A DNA stretch of 64,000 nt from Formosa algae (lineage in GTDB: Bacteria > Bacteroidota > Bacteroidia > Flavobacteriales > Flavobacteriaceae): the NCBI RefSeq assembly GCF_001439665.1, contig NZ_LMAK01000045.1:62001-126000 (forward strand), in the 5' to 3' direction. Below are positions 8,332-22,984 of the stretch, piece by piece. A program made the translations under genes and the position numbers. The notes under the pieces were generated by a model, which did no database searches, was not told the DNA's origin, and worked only from the letters and a program-made list of their open reading frames with translations. Numbering within the stretch: the stretch's first letter is position 1; the number at the start of each line of letters is the position of its first letter.

Positions 8332-8405
8332 TAAAATTTAAATACGTGAAAGTTATATTTGTAGTGATTGATTTATGTTTAATTCACAATACGTTTTCAA
8401 ACGTC

Positions 8406-8426
8406 ATGCTGAATGTGTTTCAGCAT
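8406..8426. repeat. REP-like hairpin ATGCTGAA...TTCAGCAT
   Basis: ATGCTGAA-tgtgt-TTCAGCAT, preceded by GTC and followed by CTCGTGA, is a perfect 8-bp inverted repeat in the spacer between the secreted protein and mannonate dehydratase genes. From memory, similar GTCATGCTGAA-type hairpins recur in flavobacterial intergenic regions. Only one copy was seen here. It has no T-run, so it is not a simple terminator; it may be a dispersed palindromic element or an mRNA stabiliser. Confidence 0.45.
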
Positions 8427-8558
8427 CTCGTGACTGTTAAAATTTACACCATTACCAATGTGGCACTCAACTAAATTCAGTCTGACTAAACGTTTAAAAT
8501 GAATAAAAAATCAAACTACATCATAAGCCAATTATGATACTCTAAAAAAATTATACTC

Positions 8559-9776
8559 ATGAAAATAGTTGATATAAAAATATTTGTCAGTAATCCTGGA
8601 CGTAATTTCGTTACTGTTAAAATAGAAACAGACGAAGGTGTTTTTGGTTTGGGAGATGCTACTTTAAATGGTCGAGAACTGGCAGTTGTTGCCTATTTAG
8701 AGGAACATATAAAGCCCTGCCTAATCGGTAGAGATCCGCATAAAATTGAAGATATCTGGCAATATTTATACAAAGGCTGTTATTGGAGACGTGGCCCTAT
8801 TACCATGACTGCTATTGCGGGCATAGATATGGCACTATGGGATATTAAAGGAAAAGTAGCAGGTTTACCTGTTTATGAATTATTAGGCGGAAAAAGCCGT
8901 GAAAAAATTAGAGTGTATGGTCATGCAAATGGTCAAGATATTGATGATACTTTGCATCATTTAGACCAACTCATTTCTGAAGGTTTTACTGCGGTAAGAT
9001 TACAATGTGCGATTCCTGGTTTGGAAGGCACTTACGGAACATTAGCCGGTAAAAAGGATTATTTTGAATTACAAAGCGACAGACCTTTACCGCCGGAGCA
9101 ACTTTGGGACACCAAAGCCTATTTAGACTTCGTGCCAGAATTATTTAAGAAAGCGCGAGAAAAATATGGTAATAGTGTCGATTTATTACACGATACACAT
9201 AGCCGTTTAACACCTATAGAAGCCGCGCGATTAGGTAAAATTCTGGAACCTTATAATCTTTTATTTTTAGAAGATAGCGTTACCGCAGAAAACCAAAGCG
9301 GTTATAAATATGTGCGCGAACATACCACGACGCCACTTGCGGTTGGTGAAATTTTTAATTCTATTTGGGATGCCAAGGAATTGATAGAAAATCAGTGGAT
9401 AGATTATTTGCGAACAGCAGCCACACATTCCGGAGGGATAACACCTATGAGACGTATGACCGATTTTGCCTCACTGTACCATGTGAGAACGGCACCTCAC
9501 GGTCCGCCAGATATTTCTCCTATCGGACATGCCGCTCATGCGCATTTAAATTCATGGACACCAAACTTTGGTATACAAGAATTTATCGGATTTGGAGGCG
9601 AAGCATTAAATCGTGTTTTTAAACATCCCATGACATTTGAAAACGGCCATTTACTTGTGAATAATAAGCCAGGATTAGGAGTGGAATTTGACGAAGAAGC
9701 GGCTTCTCAATTTCCATATAAACGCTCTTATTTACCTGTGAGTCGTTTAAAAGACGGCACACTGTGGAATTGGTAG
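8559..9776 (+). CDS. manD: mannonate dehydratase ManD (enolase superfamily)
   Basis: Predicted to dehydrate D-mannonate (some family members act on D-gluconate) to 2-keto-3-deoxygluconate in uronate catabolism. The 405-residue protein has an N-terminal capping domain and a TIM barrel. Catalytic and metal residues of characterised ManD enzymes are visible: Arg147 and Tyr159, Asp212 and His214 in HDTHSR, Glu238 in LEDS, Glu264 in VGEIFNS and His314 in APHGPPD. It lies 227 bp after the secreted protein gene, so it may have its own promoter. No KDG kinase or aldolase is in the window, so the rest of the pathway must be elsewhere. Family assignment is strong; substrate is inferred. Confidence 0.88.
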   Translation: MKIVDIKIFVSNPGRNFVTVKIETDEGVFGLGDATLNGRELAVVAYLEEHIKPCLIGRDPHKIEDIWQYLYKGCYWRRGPITMTAIAGIDMALWDIKGKVAGLPVYELLGGKSREKIRVYGHANGQDIDDTLHHLDQLISEGFTAVRLQCAIPGLEGTYGTLAGKKDYFELQSDRPLPPEQLWDTKAYLDFVPELFKKAREKYGNSVDLLHDTHSRLTPIEAARLGKILEPYNLLFLEDSVTAENQSGYKYVREHTTTPLAVGEIFNSIWDAKELIENQWIDYLRTAATHSGGITPMRRMTDFASLYHVRTAPHGPPDISPIGHAAHAHLNSWTPNFGIQEFIGFGGEALNRVFKHPMTFENGHLLVNNKPGLGVEFDEEAASQFPYKRSYLPVSRLKDGTLWNW

Positions 9777-13876: not shown

Positions 13877-14914
13877 ATGAATAAATTTAAACGCTTTAGT
13901 GCTCAGATCGGGCTATTACTCACCATTTGGCTTATTTTATGGTCTGGACAATTTTGGGCTACGCGTTTTCTATTAGAGAACACTTCTGCTTTTATCGCAC
14001 AGATTATAGTAATATTATTTCTTATTTTCTTTGCCGCTCCAAAATATTTATTCACCAAAAAATATATGATTTTTATAGGCTTGTCAGTAATAATTTTGAT
14101 ATTAATGACATTAGCGGCATCGTATTTTATGCCACAAATTATGGAGCCTTTGCCACATCCTCGTGGTATGCGTCCTGAAGGCATAAATCCGAGAGATATG
14201 CATAAGCCGCCTTCAGAATTTCTTACACAAAGTTTGCTTATTGTGTTGTCTTATATTCTTGCTACCGTTATTGAAGTGGTGTATTACAATCAAAAAAATG
14301 AAGAAGCCTTAATTAAAAGTAAAGCGCAAACTTTAAATACAGAACTTAAGTTATTAAAATCTCAAATTAATCCGCATTTCTTATTTAACGCATTAAACAA
14401 CATTTATGCGTTATCTGGTATAGATACAGAAAAAACGCAAAAAAGTATTAGTTATTTATCAGATATGCTACGCTATGTGTTGTACGAGTGTGAGCAACCA
14501 TTAGTTTCGCTTCAAAAAGAGATGGATTATATCGATAATTACATTAAATTATTCAGATTAAAAAGTAGCAAAACATATCCCATTAGTACACAATTTAATG
14601 TGACTAACCCAAATATTATGTTATCACCTATGCTTTTAATTCCGTTTGTAGAAAATGCCTTTAAACATTCGAATATTGAAAAAATAAAAGATACATTTAT
14701 AACCATTTATATTGAAACCACACCACAAAGTATACTTTTCAAAGTAGAGAATAGTATCCCTGAAGCACCTATAAACAAAGATGCTATGGGCGGAATTGGT
14801 TTAGAAAATGTAAAAAAACGTTTGGCTATATTATATCCGAACACACACGATTTAAAAATAACCACAGTAAATAATACTTTTAGTGTGTCTTTAAAACTAG
14901 AACAATATGTTTAA
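13877..14914 (+). CDS. LytS-type sensor histidine kinase
   Basis: Membrane sensor kinase of 345 residues. Four hydrophobic segments (about residues 10-29, 37-57, 62-84 and 117-137) precede the His_kinase domain with the phospho-acceptor His167 in QINPHFLFNALNNIY. The ATPase has an N box (PFVENAFKHS) and a short G region (GGIGLENVKKRL). It overlaps the LytTR regulator gene by 8 bp, the usual arrangement for this two-component pair. A proline/arginine-rich loop (PHPRGMRPEGINPRDMHKPP) between TM3 and TM4 may face the periplasm. The signal is unknown. Confidence 0.92.
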   Translation: MNKFKRFSAQIGLLLTIWLILWSGQFWATRFLLENTSAFIAQIIVILFLIFFAAPKYLFTKKYMIFIGLSVIILILMTLAASYFMPQIMEPLPHPRGMRPEGINPRDMHKPPSEFLTQSLLIVLSYILATVIEVVYYNQKNEEALIKSKAQTLNTELKLLKSQINPHFLFNALNNIYALSGIDTEKTQKSISYLSDMLRYVLYECEQPLVSLQKEMDYIDNYIKLFRLKSSKTYPISTQFNVTNPNIMLSPMLLIPFVENAFKHSNIEKIKDTFITIYIETTPQSILFKVENSIPEAPINKDAMGGIGLENVKKRLAILYPNTHDLKITTVNNTFSVSLKLEQYV

Positions 14915-15578
14915 GTGCTTAATCATTGACGACGAAGAATTAGCAAGAGCTTTACTAGAAAGTTATGTAAAAAAACTTGATTTTTTAGAATTACATGGCA
15001 GTTATGAGAGTCCGTTAGATGCTATGGTGACTTTGAAAGAGCAAGCTATAGATGTTATATTTTTAGACATACAAATGCCAGATTTAAAAGGAACAGATTT
15101 CGCAAAAATGATTCCTGCTGAAACTAAAGTGATTTTTACTACAGCCTATTCTGATTATGCCATTCAAGGCTTTGAACTTGATGCATTAGATTATTTATTG
15201 AAACCCATCACCTTCGAGCGTTTTTTAAAAGCAGTAAGCAAACTAAAAGTAACACATACTGAAGTGTCTAAAACAGAATACATCACCATTAAATCGGGTT
15301 ACGATTTACATAAAATAAAGTTAGAAGACATAGATTATATAGAAAGTGATAGCGAATATGTAGTGTTTTATCTTAACGGACGAAAAATTATGAGTTATCA
15401 AACTCTAAAATCTTTAGAAAAAACCTTGCCAACTTCCATGTTTTTAAGAGTTCATCGGTCTTATATTGTAAACAAAGCCAAAGTAACGGGTTTAAAAGGT
15501 CGCGATTTACTTTTAAATGAGATTATTATACCCGTTAGCGATTCGTATTACAACACCGTTAAATCAGAGTTGTTTTAA
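14907..15578 (+). CDS. LytTR family response regulator
   Basis: Transcription factor of 223 residues. The receiver domain (residues 1-115) has acidic pocket DDE at 8-10, phospho-acceptor Asp54 in FLDIQMPD, and Lys in LLKPI. The C-terminal LytTR DNA-binding domain (about 125-223) has IESDSEYVVFYLNGRKI and FLRVHRSYIVNKAKV. Such domains bind paired direct repeats through beta strands rather than a helix-turn-helix. Translation is coupled to the LytS-type kinase by overlap. The target genes are not evident here; the next gene is convergent. Confidence 0.92.
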   Translation: MFKCLIIDDEELARALLESYVKKLDFLELHGSYESPLDAMVTLKEQAIDVIFLDIQMPDLKGTDFAKMIPAETKVIFTTAYSDYAIQGFELDALDYLLKPITFERFLKAVSKLKVTHTEVSKTEYITIKSGYDLHKIKLEDIDYIESDSEYVVFYLNGRKIMSYQTLKSLEKTLPTSMFLRVHRSYIVNKAKVTGLKGRDLLLNEIIIPVSDSYYNTVKSELF

Positions 15579-16760: not shown

Positions 16761-17852
16761 ATGAATCGGACTGAATACGCATTACAAGAACGCATTAAGG
16801 AATTAACCTGTTTGTATGAGGTGTCCTCTATAATAGTGAATGCCAATTACGAACAAATTGAATCTGTGTTCTATGCCATTTCGCACAGTTTAAAAAAAGC
16901 GTTTCAATATCCTGAGCATACAGAAATTAGTATAAAGTATGATACCACATATGTAGCAACTGCTAATATAAATACAGATTTACCTAGCATAAAAGTGCCT
17001 ATAAAACTTTTTAATGTAAAAAACGGTAGCATACAAGCCAAGTATAACTCTAAAGAACTTCTTGAACATCCGTTTTTAAAAGAAGAACAGCAATTACTAC
17101 AAAGTGTTGCATTAAAGTTAGGAAGTTTATTAGAACGTTTTCAAATTATTAAAAATGAAGCCGCTTTAAAACGCCAAATGGAACATAACGATCGTTTAAC
17201 CATTTTAGGTGAAATTACAGCCGGTATCGCGCACGAACTAAATACACCTCTTGCCAATATTCTTGGTTTTGCAGAGCTATTAGAATCTAAAATCACTGAG
17301 AAAGACGATAAAAACGATTTAGAAAAAATTATACATAGCGCCATGTATTCCAGAGAAGTGGTAAAAAAACTCATGTTTTTTGCATGCGAAATGCCACAAG
17401 AAATGACCACTGTCAATATGGTACCCGTTATAAAAGACGCCTTAAGTTTATTATCGCCTACTTTTAAAAAAAATGACGTAAAATATGTCTTAAAAATAGA
17501 TCAGGAAAACCTTTTACTTAAAGCTGATACCATACAGCTGACTCAAATTATTTTCAATTTAATTTTAAATGCCATTTACTATTCTCAGCCTCAAGATTTG
17601 GTCACTATTGAAGCCTCAGAAACCAAGCAAAATATCCGTCTAAAAATAAGTGATCAAGGTCAAGGTGTATCAAACAAAAATTTAAATAAGATATTTCAAC
17701 CGTTTTTTACTACAAAACCCGTTGGTCAAGGTTCTGGTCTTGGATTAAGCGTAGTACATGGCATTGTATCCAGCCATAAAGGCTCTATTATTGTTAAAAA
17801 CAATACACCTAAAGGCGCAATATTTATTGTTAACTTACCTAAATACCATTAA
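16761..17852 (+). CDS. soluble NtrB-like sensor histidine kinase
   Basis: Cytosolic histidine kinase of 363 residues with no membrane segment. Residues 1-135 form a GAF/PAS-like sensory domain starting with a short helix (YALQERIKELTCLYEVSSII). The dimerisation domain has phospho-acceptor His158 in AGIAHELNTPLANILGFAEL. The ATPase has the N box (NLILNAIYYS), DQGQGV and GQGSGLGLSVVHGIV. Four bases separate it from the sigma-54 regulator gene, its obvious partner. Since it lacks transmembrane helices it must sense an internal cue such as redox state, nitrogen status or a partner protein. Cysteines are scarce, so direct redox sensing is uncertain. Confidence 0.92.
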   Translation: MNRTEYALQERIKELTCLYEVSSIIVNANYEQIESVFYAISHSLKKAFQYPEHTEISIKYDTTYVATANINTDLPSIKVPIKLFNVKNGSIQAKYNSKELLEHPFLKEEQQLLQSVALKLGSLLERFQIIKNEAALKRQMEHNDRLTILGEITAGIAHELNTPLANILGFAELLESKITEKDDKNDLEKIIHSAMYSREVVKKLMFFACEMPQEMTTVNMVPVIKDALSLLSPTFKKNDVKYVLKIDQENLLLKADTIQLTQIIFNLILNAIYYSQPQDLVTIEASETKQNIRLKISDQGQGVSNKNLNKIFQPFFTTKPVGQGSGLGLSVVHGIVSSHKGSIIVKNNTPKGAIFIVNLPKYH

Positions 17853-17855
17853 TTT

Positions 17856-19178
17856 ATGGCTTTCTTAAAAGAAAATGTTTTACTTGTAGATGATGATGTT
17901 CATATTCTTGAACTTTTGCAAAGACACCTTCAGGCTTTAGATTATCATACCTTTAAAGCTGTATCTGTTCGCGAAGCTGTCACAATACTAAAAGACACCA
18001 AAATAGACGTGTTAATTACAGATTTGAATATGCCCGAAATAGATGGTTTTGAGCTCTTAAAATTTACAGCAGAGCATTATCCGAATATGGGAAAATTAGT
18101 GATTACAGGCTTCCCTTCTATTCAAGATTCTTTGACAGTTATACAATCTGGTGTTGTAGAATACTTAACTAAGCCCTTTACAAAACAAGAATTAATTGAG
18201 GCTTTGCATAAAACATTAGCTCAAAATACGTCGGCTTCTAAAACCATTAAAAATCACGTAGAAGTAGATGAGCCTTACGGCGATATTATCGGGAAATCTA
18301 AAGGCATAAAACATGTTATTCAGCTTATAGAACGTGTAAAAAACAATAAAGCTACCGTTTTTATTTCTGGCGAAAGTGGTACCGGAAAAGAACTTGTAGC
18401 CCGTTCTATCCATTATCAAGGGCAATTTTCAAGAGGCCCTTTTATAGCCGTAAACTGTGGTGCTATTCCCGAAAATTTACTGGAAGCCGAACTCTTTGGT
18501 TATGTTAAAGGGGCATTTACAGGAGCAGATACCAACCGTAACGGATTCTTTCAGGCAGCAAATGGTGGTACTATATTTTTGGATGAAATAGGCAATGCCT
18601 CTTTGGCCGTGCAATCTAGATTATTACGTGTGCTTCAAGAAAAAGAAGTGGTAAAAGTTGGATCTCAAAAGGCTGAAAAAATAGACTTAAGAATTATTAC
18701 TGCAACAAACAGTAATCTAAAAGAGATGATAAAAAATCAGACTTTTAGAGACGACTTATATTACCGTTTAACAGTTGTAGAAATTTACGTGCCACCATTA
18801 AGAGATAGAAAAGAGGATATCGCACATTTAGCTGAAAAATTTCTCTACAAATACGGTTTAGAATATAAAGACAGACTTATAAAAATGGATACCAACGTGC
18901 TACCCATTTTAGAACGTTATGCTTGGCCAGGAAACATTAGAGAATTAGAAAACATTTTACAGCGCGCTATTATTTTAAGTGATAAATTAGTAACCGTAGA
19001 TGCCTTGCCTGAAAGTTTAAAATATAACATTTCATTCTCCGACTCAGATTTTGTACCGCTTAAAGAGATGGAAAAACAATACATTTTAAAAGTGTTACAC
19101 GCTTGTAATCAAAATAAAACCAAAGCCTCCGAAATTCTTCAAATTAATAGAAAAACACTGCGTGAAAAACTGAAATAA
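17856..19178 (+). CDS. NtrC-family sigma-54-dependent response regulator
   Basis: Bacterial enhancer-binding protein of 440 residues. Receiver domain: acidic DDD at 12-14, phospho-acceptor Asp56 in LITDLNMP, Lys107 in LTKPF. AAA+ domain: Walker A GESGTGKE at 172-179, the sigma-54-contact loop GAFTGA at 219-224, Walker B TIFLDEIG at 239-246 and the arginine segment FRDDLYYRL. The C-terminal Fis-type helix-turn-helix is residues 405-440 (NKTKASEILQINRKTLREKLK region). GAFTGA is intact, so it should activate RNA polymerase with RpoN. Immediately downstream lie two matching palindromes and a sigma-54 promoter, so it very probably drives the operon that follows. Confidence 0.95.
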   Translation: MAFLKENVLLVDDDVHILELLQRHLQALDYHTFKAVSVREAVTILKDTKIDVLITDLNMPEIDGFELLKFTAEHYPNMGKLVITGFPSIQDSLTVIQSGVVEYLTKPFTKQELIEALHKTLAQNTSASKTIKNHVEVDEPYGDIIGKSKGIKHVIQLIERVKNNKATVFISGESGTGKELVARSIHYQGQFSRGPFIAVNCGAIPENLLEAELFGYVKGAFTGADTNRNGFFQAANGGTIFLDEIGNASLAVQSRLLRVLQEKEVVKVGSQKAEKIDLRIITATNSNLKEMIKNQTFRDDLYYRLTVVEIYVPPLRDRKEDIAHLAEKFLYKYGLEYKDRLIKMDTNVLPILERYAWPGNIRELENILQRAIILSDKLVTVDALPESLKYNISFSDSDFVPLKEMEKQYILKVLHACNQNKTKASEILQINRKTLREKLK

Positions 19179-19193
19179 GCCTCATATTATTCC

Positions 19194-19228
19194 GGGTAGT
19201 TTCTACCCTATCGGGTAATTTTGTACCA
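19194..19228 (+). promoter_or_regulatory. paired palindromes, candidate enhancer (UAS) for the sigma-54 regulator
   Basis: Site A, 19194-19208, is GGGTAGtttCTACCC, a perfect inverted repeat. Site B, 19213-19228, is GGGTAattttgTACCa, sharing the GGGTA/TACC half-sites. Their centres are about 19-20 bp apart, near two helical turns, and lie roughly 136-155 bp upstream of the predicted start site. This is the classic spacing of an NtrC-type enhancer. They begin 16 bp after the regulator stop codon. Confidence 0.65.
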
Positions 19229-19329
19229 GTATTAAATTCATACTCAATTCACACATATCTATCCAACCCTTTTAAAAATCAGTGTTTTAAAGGGGTTTCT
19301 ACTTATAGCGCTTTTTTAAATTTCGGATA

Positions 19330-19345
19330 TGGCACAACACTTGCC
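19330..19345 (+). promoter_or_regulatory. sigma-54 (RpoN) -24/-12 promoter
   Basis: TGGCACAACACTTGCC matches the sigma-54 consensus TGGCAC-N5-TTGC with exactly 10 bp between the invariant GG and GC. The predicted start site is near 19356, giving a leader of about 21 nt before the small cysteine-rich gene at 19377. No competing TAnnTTTG element was seen between 19230 and 19376. Confidence 0.85.
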
Positions 19346-19376
19346 TTTTCTTAGATAGAAATAGAAATACAATGCT

Positions 19377-19547
19377 ATGAAAAAACCAAACTATAGTATC
19401 TGTGCAGAATGTGTGCACTGTAATGCCTGTGTATTAACCACAGAAAAAGAGAAAGTATCGTCTTGTAGTGAGTTTGAAAGCGCTTTGTTTTTAGACCTAG
19501 TGAATAGGCCTAAACAGCAAATAAAATCAACGCATCTACAATATTAA
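19377..19547 (+). CDS. small four-cysteine protein, first gene of sigma-54 operon
   Basis: A 56-codon ORF (ATG 19377, TAA 19545-19547) that a length filter would miss. The product contains C-x2-C-x2-C-x2-C at residues 9, 12, 15 and 18 (CAECVHCNAC) plus Cys30. Four evenly spaced cysteines resemble half a bacterial ferredoxin cluster motif or a small zinc/iron site; the sequence is too short for a full ferredoxin. It sits 32 bp after the sigma-54 -12 element and 22 bp before the glutamate dehydrogenase gene, so it is the promoter-proximal gene. Codon use resembles its neighbours. Function unknown; electron transfer, redox sensing or a regulatory subunit are guesses. Confidence 0.65.
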   Translation: MKKPNYSICAECVHCNACVLTTEKEKVSSCSEFESALFLDLVNRPKQQIKSTHLQY

Positions 19548-19569
19548 TTTCAACCTTAAACATCTTAAT

Positions 19570-20865
19570 ATGATTACAAAAGATATACAGTTACCAGTAA
19601 AAAAAACAGAGACTGGTATGGTTGCCAATGTGCTAGAACAATTTAATAAAGCCGCTCATCACATTCAATTAAATCCGAATATACAACGCATACTCAATGT
19701 TACAAATAATGAAATTATCATTCATTTTCCTGTAAAAATGGATAATGGAGATGTAGAAATATTTACGGGATATCGTGTACAACACAATAATGCATTGGGA
19801 CCATATAAGGGTGGTTTACGTTATCATGAAACTGTAGATATTGATGCTGCTAAAGCTTTAGCGATGTGGATGACATGGAAAACATCTTTAGCGGGTTTAC
19901 CTTACGGTGGCGCTAAAGGTGGCATTAAAATTAATCCGAAGTTATATTCTCAATCGGAGTTGGAACGTATTACACGCAGATTTACCTATGCATTGGGCGA
20001 TAATATTGGTCCAGAACACGATATTCCTGCACCCGATGTAAACACCAACGCACAAACTATGGCATGGATTGCAGATACGTATATGTCGACTAAAAGTCCG
20101 TCGGAACGTTCTACATATCAACATGTCGTTACAGGAAAACCTGTGGGTTCAGGAGGTATTGAAGGTCGAGATCGTTCTACGGGTTACGGGGTATTTTTAA
20201 CCATTAAATTATGGGCAGATAAACGTAATATATCACTAAAAGGACAACGTTTTATTGTGCAAGGTTTTGGTAATGTAGGCTATTGGGCTTCATATTTTAT
20301 GGATCAAGAAGGCGCTATTTTGGTTGGTGTTCAGGATGCTTTTGCGAGTATCTATCAGCCTAATGGTATTGATGTTAATCAACTTCAATCTTATATTAAT
20401 CATAATGAAGGTAGCGTGAATGATTTTGCCGATTCTAAAACCATTAAAAAAGAAGATTTCTTTGCGTTAGACTGCGACATTATTATACCAGCCGCTTTGG
20501 GTAATCAAATCACAGAAGAAAATGCGTCTCTTATTAAAGCTAAGCTTATTGCTGAAGGTGCAAACGGACCAACTAATGTAAGTGGCGAACGCATTTTATT
20601 GGCAAATGGCATTGAAATTATACCTGATATTTTATGTAATTCTGGAGGTGTAATTGGGAGTTATTTTGAATGGTTACAAAACAGAAACGGCGAGCTCTGG
20701 CATATGGATGAAGTTTTACTAAAACTAGAAAAAACACTTCAAGATTCGTTTAATAAAGTGTACAATTTCGCTATCGCAGAAGATATAGACATGAGAACGG
20801 CAGCTTATTGCATAGCCATTCAGCGCATTGAAAAAGCATATATACAACGTGGAATTTTTCCATAA
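19570..20865 (+). CDS. glutamate dehydrogenase (Glu/Leu/Phe/Val family)
   Basis: Hexameric-type dehydrogenase of 431 residues that interconverts glutamate with 2-oxoglutarate and ammonium. Substrate-site residues are visible in GPYKGGLRYH (Lys80), TWKTSLAGLPYGGAKGG (Lys104 and catalytic Lys116) and PAPDVNT (Asp156). The dinucleotide fold has GFGNVG at 232-237. An acidic residue follows the second strand (VGVQDA), which usually indicates NAD rather than NADP and so a catabolic role; this is inference. It is the second gene after a sigma-54 promoter, and control by RpoN would link it to nitrogen or energy stress. Confidence 0.93.
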   Translation: MITKDIQLPVKKTETGMVANVLEQFNKAAHHIQLNPNIQRILNVTNNEIIIHFPVKMDNGDVEIFTGYRVQHNNALGPYKGGLRYHETVDIDAAKALAMWMTWKTSLAGLPYGGAKGGIKINPKLYSQSELERITRRFTYALGDNIGPEHDIPAPDVNTNAQTMAWIADTYMSTKSPSERSTYQHVVTGKPVGSGGIEGRDRSTGYGVFLTIKLWADKRNISLKGQRFIVQGFGNVGYWASYFMDQEGAILVGVQDAFASIYQPNGIDVNQLQSYINHNEGSVNDFADSKTIKKEDFFALDCDIIIPAALGNQITEENASLIKAKLIAEGANGPTNVSGERILLANGIEIIPDILCNSGGVIGSYFEWLQNRNGELWHMDEVLLKLEKTLQDSFNKVYNFAIAEDIDMRTAAYCIAIQRIEKAYIQRGIFP

Positions 20866-20878
20866 ATAAAAATATAAT

Positions 20879-21295
20879 ATGAAGTACGGACAATTAATAC
20901 TTGAAAAAAAAGAGTATGTGTTTTTAAAACGCATACTCAACCTTACAGGATATTCTAAAGATATAGAAACAAAAAAATCATTACAAAAACTTAATCATGA
21001 ACTGTTAGAAGCAGCTATTATTGATCATGAAAATATGCCTCTGGATGTCATCCGATTTAATAGCATTGTTACAGTAGAACAAGGCCAATGGCAGAAAACC
21101 ATACAAATTGTAATTCCTCAGAACAAAGACTTAAAACAGAATAAAATTTCAATATTAACACCTATGGGATCTGCCCTATTTGGATATGCTTTGGGAGATT
21201 GCATTACATGGGAATTTCCCAATGGTATTAAAGAATTAAAAATTGTAGCTGTAGAACAGGAATTCAGTTATAACGGTTTAGACATCTTAATTTGA
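20879..21295 (+). CDS. Rnk/GreA-GreB C-terminal-domain family protein
   Basis: A 138-residue protein with an N-terminal helical part (about 10-55) and a C-terminal FKBP-like GreA/GreB domain (about 60-138; ILTPMGSALFGYALGDCITWEFPNG region). Length and architecture match Rnk, which binds RNA polymerase near the secondary channel, rather than GreA (about 158 residues with a long coiled coil). The short helical arm and absence of an obvious acidic tip suggest it does not stimulate transcript cleavage. It follows glutamate dehydrogenase by 13 bp. It could adjust transcription under the stress that activates the operon; this is inference. Confidence 0.8.
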   Translation: MKYGQLILEKKEYVFLKRILNLTGYSKDIETKKSLQKLNHELLEAAIIDHENMPLDVIRFNSIVTVEQGQWQKTIQIVIPQNKDLKQNKISILTPMGSALFGYALGDCITWEFPNGIKELKIVAVEQEFSYNGLDILI

Positions 21296-21300
21296 AGCTT

Positions 21301-21654
21301 ATGCATGTACATTATTTAAATATCAGTCGTCAGGACATGCCTAACGATAGTTCACGTGAATTGAATTATTGGATCCGGCATTTGAAAACGATACAAAAAG
21401 AACTGAAACATTTGTATTCTGAAACAAAAGCGGCAAAACACACGCTTATTAAAAAGACTATATCAACTCAAGTATCACTTACCCAATCTATTTTAAATGC
21501 ATTACTAACGTATAAAGAATTTAGAGATTGGATGCATGATGATGATTTGCAAAATGACAACGCTTTTATTTTTGAACACAAAAAACACAAAGACAACTAT
21601 TTGCAACATGTAAAAAGATATTGCATGTTCAGGTCTAAACTTTTAGCTCACTAA
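21301..21654 (+). CDS. hypothetical helical protein A of sigma-54 operon
   Basis: Not recognised. The ATG at 21301 (MHVHYLNISRQD) is preferred to an in-frame TTG at 21292 that overlaps the upstream stop. The 117-residue product is almost wholly helical, with a likely coiled coil at residues 20-75 (WIRHLKTIQKELKHLYSET) and a charged His/Asp-rich C-terminal part (DWMHDDDLQNDN, EHKKHKDNYLQH). There is no signal peptide or membrane segment. It lies 5 bp after the Rnk-like gene and 4 bp before another helical protein gene with which it shares a loose pattern (E-L-x-x-W-x-x-x-L near the start of the helix). A cytosolic structural or adaptor role is possible. Confidence 0.65.
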   Translation: MHVHYLNISRQDMPNDSSRELNYWIRHLKTIQKELKHLYSETKAAKHTLIKKTISTQVSLTQSILNALLTYKEFRDWMHDDDLQNDNAFIFEHKKHKDNYLQHVKRYCMFRSKLLAH

Positions 21655-21658
21655 ACAC

Positions 21659-22066
21659 ATGACACATGCTAACCCCGTAAATACACATATGCATTATAAA
21701 GCAGATGAAAATAGACGTTTATTCATTAAAAAAGATATTATTGAAATTTCGTTATGGACGGACGATTTAGAGTATAAAAACACAGAAATTAACAGTTTTA
21801 GTATATTAAACAGGCAATTAATTAAATCTGAACGTCTTCAAAACACCATTCAGGATTTTAGACGTAGAAACACGCTTATTATGGGAAATATATGTAAATA
21901 TGAGCAACATTTACGTCAGGAATTAGAATTTGGTACTATTGAATATGACTTAAACCGTGCTAAACTTCATGAAAAAAGACGTGCAGAATATGTAAACTTG
22001 GATAAGGAATATCGTGCTTTAAAAACAGATATTTTTAATCTGTTATCAAAATTTAAACGCGAATAA
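21659..22066 (+). CDS. hypothetical helical protein B of sigma-54 operon
   Basis: Not recognised. A 135-residue, highly charged, helical protein with likely coiled-coil segments at about residues 28-75 (EISLWTDDLEYKNTEINSF) and 80-133. There are no membrane segments or cysteine motifs (one Cys, near residue 79). It starts 4 bp after protein A and is the last gene before a terminator at 22080-22123, so it is part of the sigma-54 operon. Loose similarity of layout to protein A suggests the two could be diverged paralogues or partners; an alignment would be needed to say. Confidence 0.65.
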   Translation: MTHANPVNTHMHYKADENRRLFIKKDIIEISLWTDDLEYKNTEINSFSILNRQLIKSERLQNTIQDFRRRNTLIMGNICKYEQHLRQELEFGTIEYDLNRAKLHEKRRAEYVNLDKEYRALKTDIFNLLSKFKRE

Positions 22067-22079
22067 GTGAGTAACCGCA

Positions 22080-22123
22080 GACTAAGATTTAGCATCCTGT
22101 AAGGCTAATTTCTTAGTCTTTTT
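22080..22123 (+). terminator. intrinsic terminator of sigma-54 operon, overlapping convergent gene end
   Basis: GACTAAGA-tTTAGC, a 10-nt loop, then GCTAA-ttTCTTAGTC and TTTTTA. The stem has about 13 pairs with a small internal mismatch and ends in T7. It starts 14 bp after the protein B stop. The hairpin lies inside the last codons of the convergent DMT transporter gene, so that protein's C-terminus is partly encoded antisense to a terminator. Confidence 0.7.
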
Positions 22124-22984
22124 ATCTTTATATATAATGTTCGCTATTAGCGATACAATGATTAATAATATACCAAATAGTGACCAAAACGGATAAGATT
22201 CATTAAAAATAGCAACGCCAAGAATCATGGTAAAAATAACTTCAACATATTTTATAGGCGCAACTTGATTAGTTTGTGCATTCTGAAATGCTTTTGTCAT
22301 TAACAACTGTCCGAAATACCCAAACACACCTAAAAGTCCTAAAAACAACCACTCTAAACCAACTGGAGTTACCCAACTATTAATGCTAACTAATCCTCCG
22401 ACAATTGCCGAAATAATCATAAAATAATTCACTACCACAACCGGATGCTCCGATTTCCCTATTTTACTAATTATGATATAAACTAGTCCACTAAATATTG
22501 CAGAAACAAGAATCAAAGTCAATCCAAAAGTATCTAAATCAGAATCAAACCCCTTCAATATTACAACACCTAAAAACGCAAACACAAAGAAAATCCATTG
22601 TAAAGGAAATATCTTTTCTTTTAAAATTAATACCGCAAAAATGGCTGCGAAAATGGGTGCTAAATAACGTAATGACACTGCTGTACCAATAGGTAAATAT
22701 TTTGTAGACATAAAGAAAAGCGACATAGATGTTAATCCCACAACTCCTCTTAAAATTAACAACTTATTATTTTTACCGACTAAAGGAATTTTATTTTTTA
22801 ATAAATATCCGAAAGTAAAAAACAATGACCCTAACGATCTAAAAAAAACAATTTGGAAGGCTCCAATATTATCTAAGTATTTTACAGCGCCGTTCATGCA
22901 CGCAAAAGCTAGCGTACTTAGTAACATTAATTTTATAGAGTCTTTTAATTGCATTGTGCTTGGACATTTAATTTCGGAACGCAT
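22082..22984 (-). CDS. EamA/DMT superfamily transporter
   Basis: Inner membrane transporter of 300 residues with ten predicted helices in two EamA repeats (about 12-145 and 155-290), for example LMLLSTLAFACMNGAVKYL at the start of the first repeat. The C-terminus is lysine-rich and cytosolic. The start at 22984 is consistent with the TAnnTTTG-type element at 23008-23015. A Met at codon 11 (MQLKDSIKL) is the alternative and would begin nearer to the first helix. It is monocistronic and convergent with the sigma-54 operon. Substrate unknown. Confidence 0.86.
   Translation of the reverse strand: MRSEIKCPSTMQLKDSIKLMLLSTLAFACMNGAVKYLDNIGAFQIVFFRSLGSLFFTFGYLLKNKIPLVGKNNKLLILRGVVGLTSMSLFFMSTKYLPIGTAVSLRYLAPIFAAIFAVLILKEKIFPLQWIFFVFAFLGVVILKGFDSDLDTFGLTLILVSAIFSGLVYIIISKIGKSEHPVVVVNYFMIISAIVGGLVSINSWVTPVGLEWLFLGLLGVFGYFGQLLMTKAFQNAQTNQVAPIKYVEVIFTMILGVAIFNESYPFWSLFGILLIIVSLIANIIYKDKKTKKLALQDAKS

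Follow-up and report, generated by a model that had tools for sequence, protein, structure and literature searches.

According to the accessible part of a review, Rnk of Escherichia coli binds RNA polymerase and competes with Gre factors and DksA, and the function of Rnk-like factors as a group is called unknown there (PMC4598747). A cross-phylum prediction of sigma-54 regulons, as far as its available text goes, gives targets in Flavobacteriia and lists glutamate dehydrogenase (GDH) among those of Bacillota (PMC12316311). Here we describe a module at 16761–22119 of a 64-kb window of the 4.29-Mb Formosa algae genome (all coordinates are positions in this window unless another locus is named). 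It comprises a histidine kinase, an NtrC-type activator, a pair of palindromes, a predicted sigma-54 promoter and a run of five genes encoding a four-cysteine protein (Cys4), a GDH, a Rnk-like factor and two helical proteins, U6 and U7. To our knowledge, it is rare, beyond Proteobacteria and Bacillota, for a sigma-54 target to have been linked with its activator and the activator's binding site. We consider it probable that the module is an NtrC-type sigma-54 regulatory circuit serving NAD(P)H/glutamate balance and RNA polymerase adjustment in stressed cells.

Conservation of the operon, promoter and palindrome pair

A profile from 11 aligned Rnk-like proteins found 327 relatives in a genome collection, and analysis was confined to the loci of the top 80; having been picked by Rnk-like similarity, these form a biased sample. 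Their record titles carry 35 genus names, with Flavobacterium and Cytophaga possibly used loosely, and include some metagenome-assembled genomes. The closest Rnk-like proteins from named records among the matches listed were those of two Formosa records (88%), the search having possibly excluded records very near the window's own genome. Kinase and activator genes are present in 78 of the 80 loci, Cys4 in 70, GDH in 76, the Rnk-like gene in all 80 and a U gene in 79. All six gene types (kinase, activator, Cys4, GDH, Rnk-like, U) occur together in 66/80 loci, and 66/66 of these keep them in this order on one strand. Partial modules were also seen: one genome (G007, L031) carries the kinase, activator, Rnk-like and U genes and neither GDH nor Cys4, and in another (G006, L034) a U gene is the sole module gene found. 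When 397 genomes sampled evenly from the family were searched with a U profile, 129 matched, 73 of them strongly (E ≤ 2.1e-19) and 56 weakly.

The control region is conserved along with the genes. We scored the 79 regions following the activator gene (78 loci and the window) on 12 consensus positions of the sigma-54 promoter. The best score was 12 in 1 region, 11 in 8, 10 in 39, 9 in 24, 8 in 6 and 7 in 1, which places at least 8/12 in 78/79 regions and at least 9/12 in 72/79. A palindrome model trained on, and then scanned over, the 78 regions with a promoter of at least 8/12 found at least one palindrome in 78/78 and at least two in 73/78, as against 0.45% of mononucleotide shuffles with two or more. 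The spacing between palindromes is exactly 19 bp in 70 of the 78 regions and 18 bp in 3. The centre of the proximal palindrome lies mostly 95–101 bp upstream of the promoter TGG; in six cases, the window included, it lies at 108–110 bp, which can be read as about one helical turn farther, with the helix face kept. A class one turn nearer (L064, L067 and L098, at 86–87 bp) is not claimed, because the scan of L064 took an overlapping decoy; an alternative palindrome site in that locus gives a distance of 99 bp.

Because the palindrome model had been trained on the same regions, the test was repeated without it, by column conservation anchored on the promoter only. In 76 regions, most of the 26 most informative columns fell at −123 to −91, −53 to −31 and +17 to +21, with isolated columns at −62 and −24. 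The first block corresponds to the GGG...CCC halves of the palindromes and the second to the CCC...GGG of a hairpin. A terminator-like hairpin between enhancer and promoter was present in 36/78 regions vs 47/1560 shuffles.

In the window itself, the palindromes CGGGTAGTTTCTACCCT and CGGGTAATTTTGTACCA are 17 bp each, with centres 19 bp apart and the proximal centre 110 bp from the −24 element. The pair occurs once in the 64 kb and not at all in 432 kb of mononucleotide-shuffled sequence of relatives. The combination of pair and promoter exceeds chance, because the pair is unique in the window and absent from shuffles and both elements keep a fixed spacing in relatives. The elements listed in an earlier note on this DNA, namely a soluble kinase, a GAFTGA activator, two palindromes, a sigma-54 promoter (10/12), five genes with gaps of 4–22 bp and a terminator-like hairpin, are all present; what that layout had missed is a second hairpin (19265–19297) between palindromes and promoter, which is probably the terminator of the kinase–activator transcript. 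The sigma-54 circuit that the note had proposed is likewise strongly supported by the conservation of gene order, promoter and palindromes across relatives that the note had named as its test, and by the operons considered below that lie apart from their regulator genes (Table 1).

Table 1. Features of the module and their positions in the window
Feature	Position	Strand	Basis
Histidine kinase, soluble; GAF-fold sensor, HisKA, HATPase_c	16761..17852	+	Pfam, AlphaFold2, Foldseek
NtrC-type sigma-54 activator; receiver (Asp56), AAA+ with GAFTGA, HTH_8	17856..19178	+	Pfam, alignment
Distal enhancer palindrome (predicted) CGGGTAGTTTCTACCCT	19193..19209	.	palindrome scan
Proximal enhancer palindrome (predicted) CGGGTAATTTTGTACCA	19212..19228	.	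palindrome scan
Terminator-like hairpin between enhancer and core promoter	19265..19297	+	−12.6 kcal/mol, z −3.2
Sigma-54 (−24/−12) promoter (predicted) TGGCACAACACTTGCC	19330..19345	+	10/12 consensus positions
Cys4 protein, 56 aa	19377..19547	+	motif; no Pfam/NCBIfam match
GDH; ELFV_dehydrog_N, ELFV_dehydrog	19570..20865	+	Pfam
Rnk-like factor; GreA/GreB C-terminal domain, Rnk-length N-terminal part	20879..21295	+	Pfam PF01272, profile matches
U6 (U-alpha), helical protein (ATG at 21301)	21301..21654	+	comparison with relatives, tree
U7 (U-beta), helical protein, U6 paralogue, three-long-helix model	21659..22066	+	tree, structure model
3' hairpin and T-run	22079..22119	.	−15.2 kcal/mol, z −2.6

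The five genes of the run are separated by 22, 13, 5 and 4 bp. Placed from the GC of the −12 element, transcription would start at about 19356 and leave a leader of ~20 nt before the Cys4 gene. The hairpin at 22079–22119 adjoins the end of the convergent gene at 22082–22984, and the two transcription units probably share it as a terminator; a consensus terminator scan did not list it. Close upstream of the module (13877–15578) lie genes for a 345-aa membrane kinase-like protein and a 223-aa response-regulator-like protein (LytTR type by eye); members of their families (F17 and F04) hold the same position in L038 and L039 and precede the kinase in L084.

Predicted targets and extent of the regulon

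The best evidence for the predicted link between regulator and target comes from operons that lie apart from the activator gene yet keep pair and promoter. Both are kept in L064, L066 and L094, in which the activator lies just over 1 kb away or farther, and in L076, a locus containing no activator. A weaker case is L150, whose operon is convergent with the kinase and activator genes (pair score 24, promoter 8/12). On this comparative evidence we regard the predicted activator–target link as strong.

The same arrangement is found beyond the operon. Five genomes were examined for pntA, a gene of the proton-translocating transhydrogenase, and in four of them (L053, L150, L226 and L227) the gene stands outside the operon with a pair and promoter of its own. 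The L150 gene is 58% identical to that of L053, and those of L226 and L227 are 371-aa frames starting 91 and 93 nt past the TGG. Over 30 module-bearing genomes, a pntA search gave three strong matches (E < 1e-70; L226, L227 and L228), while the other 27 gave weak ones only (E 8.6e-18 or worse), which we take as alanine-dehydrogenase relatives. Shuffled controls contained pair plus promoter 0 times in 313 kb and 0 times in 1,083 kb. Furthermore, in 17 Aequorivita loci the pnt genes are the immediate downstream neighbours of U, in the same orientation (17 PntA, 12 PNTB_4TM and 12 PntB, counted by chaining gaps below 250 bp). As a predicted target, pnt is tied to the activator by both position and promoter, with one exception (L228) among the five pntA genes outside the operon.

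Other candidate targets are scattered. A pair and promoter precede mscS in L067 and, in L089, a gene with a ferritin domain (Dps-like). In L162 they stand before the gene of a secreted-looking protein of 120 aa, and a weaker version (20-bp spacing) occurs in L159. This protein, which carries an IIKRGGIAN motif and is ~120 aa long, is encoded inside the module in L155 (5093–5458), L159 (5444–5806) and L162 (9389–9751). Behind the operon stand UspA-like genes, 33 of them co-directional with it, and immediately before the kinase, likewise co-directional, are genes for NhaA (6) and MscS (9). The latter positions, the L067 mscS and a 4HB membrane protein preceding the kinase in six loci would fit a response to osmotic, cation or alkaline stress, in which glutamate from GDH serves as counter-ion for potassium and NhaA and MscS act as partners. 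We hold this to be rather unlikely as the main role, since most of the 80 loci contain no NhaA or MscS family member within the stretch examined, no membrane segment was recognized in the kinase by Pfam or modelling, and pnt and the Rnk-like factor are left unexplained.

Searches for further sites returned few candidates. In the window genome, matches to the proximal palindrome with at most two mismatches numbered 11 vs 13 in a reversed control; in the relatives G423 and G425, palindrome matches numbered 17 and 27 vs 9 and 18 in reversed controls. No further pair was found in relatives at the loci fetched (10 sigma-54 sites in G423 and G424; 30 of 44 palindrome matches in G423 and G425), in a search that is insensitive: the palindromes of L067 and L107 themselves differ from the query by more than three bases, and L081 has a single palindrome. 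As far as the searches of the window genome reach, the earlier description of the circuit as self-contained fits that genome; in relatives the regulon is wider.

Several observations weigh against the reading as a dedicated sigma-54 circuit. GDH is missing in 4/80 loci and no Cys4 gene was recognized in 10/80; five of 78 regions have a single palindrome; L037, L159 and L161 have one good palindrome or weak ones; and L149 combines a pair with a poor promoter. L033 has no regulator in 16 kb and, in place of a full pair, one good palindrome 96 bp from a 9/12 site, and L077 has GDH–Rnk–U with no regulator in the locus and neither pair nor promoter. The module has been lost from one genome of the same genus (G003, L029). 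There, at 8359–8947 of the locus, a 102-aa kinase fragment adjoins a 74-aa U7 fragment, and activator, Cys4, GDH, Rnk-like and U6 genes were not found between them. The pntA-like gene of L228, an open frame of a more distant type (43% identity), lacks the pair. Dps was rejected as a regular target, with a pair in 0/30 Dps loci (one per module-bearing genome) and L089 the only case, and the UspA-like protein scores below the cut-off of the Pfam Usp model (16.6 vs 24). Among 28 sigma-54-like sites examined in the window genome, a sample that leaves out weaker promoters, the pair accompanies only the module. The sigma-54 match is by itself unremarkable: exact TGGCAC-N5-TTGC occurs 5 times genome-wide vs 2 in a reversed control, and one-mismatch sites number 3 in the window vs 2.34 expected. 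This commonness of the promoter match, together with the bare operon genes of L077, would be expected if promoter and palindromes were incidental and the genes ran from an ordinary promoter. Conserved spacing and co-occurrence with targets speak against that view, which we consider highly improbable.

Proteins of the circuit and the operon

The N-terminal part of the kinase (residues ~1–110) was modelled by AlphaFold2 as a reduced GAF fold of two helices, four strands and a long helix, at a mean predicted local distance difference test (pLDDT) score of 87.4. Foldseek matched it to the GAF domain of A. aeolicus Nlh1 (4g3k, E 5.5e-5), with the Nlh2 GAF also among the best matches. His158 in HisKA is invariant in 40/40 aligned kinases, and neither Pfam nor the structure model revealed a membrane segment or membrane domain. 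The stand-alone 4HB_MCP-type membrane protein encoded just upstream of the kinase in L064, L072, L081, L088, L089 and L092 may be an accessory sensor. Palindrome pairs before this gene in L081 and L088 were not counted as targets, their sigma-54 matches being weak and at an off distance (75 bp). The activator has the Pfam domains Response_reg, Sigma54_activat and HTH_8 with an intact GAFTGA, and Asp56 and the GAFTGA loop are invariant in 10/10 aligned proteins. The ntrC model is among its best matches; it stays below the curated cut-offs for NtrC (TIGR01818, 380.9 vs 558.6 bits) and NtrX (280.2 vs 600 bits), and those for AtoC and ZraR are likewise not reached. The kinase, too, falls short of the curated NtrC-type cut-offs.

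The nearest solved chains to the GDH are 1b3b and 1b26, which we take to be Thermotoga enzymes, and its scores fall below NCBIfam equivalog cut-offs (GdhA_Arch, 443.3 vs 750; PRK09414, 254.6 vs 536). A second GDH-family gene is present in the same genome (G000:C2:45801-46538), scoring 301.6 bits with ELFV_dehydrog vs 229.3 for the module GDH. The enzyme brings to mind a nitrogen-limitation NtrBC system, in which the kinase would read nitrogen status and induce GDH to assimilate or release ammonium. Such a role is consistent with the NtrC-type domain architecture and the rank of the ntrC model, with GDH in the operon, and with the precedent for sigma-54-type control of a GDH at Bacillus rocG, as given in the available text (PMC4348106). 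Nevertheless, the activator scores, the second GDH-family gene, four loci that keep the circuit and Rnk–U without GDH, and recurrent partners that are pnt, UspA-like, MscS and Rnk-like genes make it improbable, and nitrogen assimilation as main function was ranked low on model scores and partner content. No recognized nitrogen-assimilation gene, such as glnA, amt or glnK, was among the eight neighbour families looked up, most neighbours being unannotated and the search not extending genome-wide.

The Rnk-like protein matches 2pn0 and Rnk itself (3bmb) by profile. Residues 37–127 align with 33–125 of 3bmb, and residues 34–127 with 61–156 of GreA; the N-terminal side is thus ~27 residues shorter than in GreA, at an offset nearly equal to that of Rnk. 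The protein is below the NCBIfam PRK05753 equivalog cut-off (83.1 vs 109 bits). The Cys4 protein has no Pfam or NCBIfam match; its motif, C-x2-C-x5-C-x(8-11)-C, recurs in 70/70 relatives recognized, and a metal-binding or redox role is plausible.

U6 and U7 had been put forward as two unknown helical proteins. Their helical nature stands: the U model consists of three long helices (pLDDT 93.8), and no solved relative was found in the PDB, by structure (best E 0.15) or by profile against PDB sequences (best E 0.54). What does not stand is their number, for on sequence evidence they are paralogues of one duplicated family. Both match one and the same gene in two relatives (G031 and G006), and in a tree of 129 U proteins one clade (support 0.999) takes in every one of the 49 second copies, along with 3 single-copy proteins. 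Across the 80 loci, E-C-x(3-6)-C occurs in 74/79 first or only copies vs 1/48 second copies; the window U6 lacks the C-x5-C found in relatives.

The weak U relatives that were examined belong either to a second stress island (L147, L148, L151–L154) or to a divergent version of the module (L149, L150). Island genes encode UspA-like (by eye), MscS, ATP-cone, beta-CASP nuclease, Hsp20 and D-2-hydroxyacid dehydrogenase proteins, not all at each locus. It is conceivable, if doubtful, that the module belongs, as its local arm, to an anoxia response of the universal-stress type, that is, to an oxygen-limitation or dormancy programme. The company that distant U homologues keep in this island, and the UspA-like genes following the operon, point that way; against it, the island loci have neither a pair with promoter nor a sigma-54 site of at least 11/12, and no oxygen-sensing residues were identified.

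Proposed function and relation to known systems

Gene content, order, promoter, enhancer pair and co-occurrence with targets come from comparison of sequences; the phosphorelay, binding, looping and physiological role that follow are what we infer. The cytoplasmic GAF-domain kinase may respond to a small ligand inside the cell or to redox state, and would phosphorylate the adjacent activator. The activator would then bind the two palindromes 19 bp apart, bridge ~100 bp by a DNA loop that spans the terminator of its own transcript, and remodel sigma-54 polymerase via GAFTGA. The Cys4–GDH–Rnk–U(–U) operon would thereby be switched on, often with UspA-like genes, and in some lineages so would the pnt transhydrogenase genes, which have nhaA and mscS in their neighbourhood. 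When energy or redox stress sets in, GDH and Pnt may readjust the NAD(P)H pool and that of glutamate/2-oxoglutarate, and the Rnk-like factor may alter occupancy of the RNA polymerase secondary channel.

This assignment follows from the gene content: GDH with a proton-translocating transhydrogenase points to NAD(P)H and glutamate/2-oxoglutarate balance, the Rnk-like factor to transcription adjustment, and UspA-like and MscS genes to stress. In our ranking, redox/energy stress leads, followed by oxygen limitation and osmotic stress, with nitrogen in last place. Of the stress or nitrogen/energy response that the earlier note had proposed, the stress and energy part agrees with the pnt, UspA-like and MscS partners, and the nitrogen part is not supported, given the activator scores, the second GDH-family gene and the eight neighbour families looked up. 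A bolder and tentative proposal is that the module forms the core of a sigma-54 redox/general-stress regulon of Flavobacteriaceae, which would fill part of the RpoS/SigB role through one NtrC-type activator. NAD(P)H would be retuned by GDH and Pnt and RNA polymerase reprogrammed by the Rnk-like factor, with Cys4 and the duplicated U (C-x5-C in U-alpha) as redox-responsive partners.

The mechanism would be ordinary NtrC/sigma-54 activation and is known; the regulon is apparently new. A literature search, from which subscription papers were mostly missing, found no description of the module or regulon, a negative that carries little weight. In a study of transcription starts in F. psychrophilum, the main text contains the term 'sigma-54' a single time, and a text search for 'glutamate dehydrogenase' and 'universal stress' found neither (PMC9723704). 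Since records bearing ~35 genus names allow the activator to be read jointly with enhancer pair, promoter and targets, the regulon becomes testable in culturable marine flavobacteria. In addition, Rnk-like factors gain a conserved genomic context, and two uncharacterised protein families (Cys4 and U) are named for study.

Among described systems, the circuit resembles NtrB/NtrC, AtoSC and ZraSR in its kinase, its receiver–AAA+–HTH_8 activator with GAFTGA, its tandem upstream palindromes and its −24/−12 promoter; it differs from them in scoring below the curated cut-offs (NtrC, NtrX, AtoC, ZraR), in its redox/stress partners and in its reduced GAF sensor. The available text of the cross-phylum regulon prediction mentions neither this module nor its activator or enhancer pair (PMC12316311). 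With RocR/SigL control of Bacillus subtilis rocG it shares sigma-54-type control of a GDH, whereas, compared with that system as presented in the accessible text, the module has a histidine kinase and a phospho-receiver and includes Rnk-like and U genes in the operon (PMC4348106). Finally, the Rnk-like factor has the GreA/B C-terminal domain of E. coli Rnk at nearly the same offset; unlike Rnk, it lies in a sigma-54 operon with GDH and scores below the Rnk-type NCBIfam cut-off.

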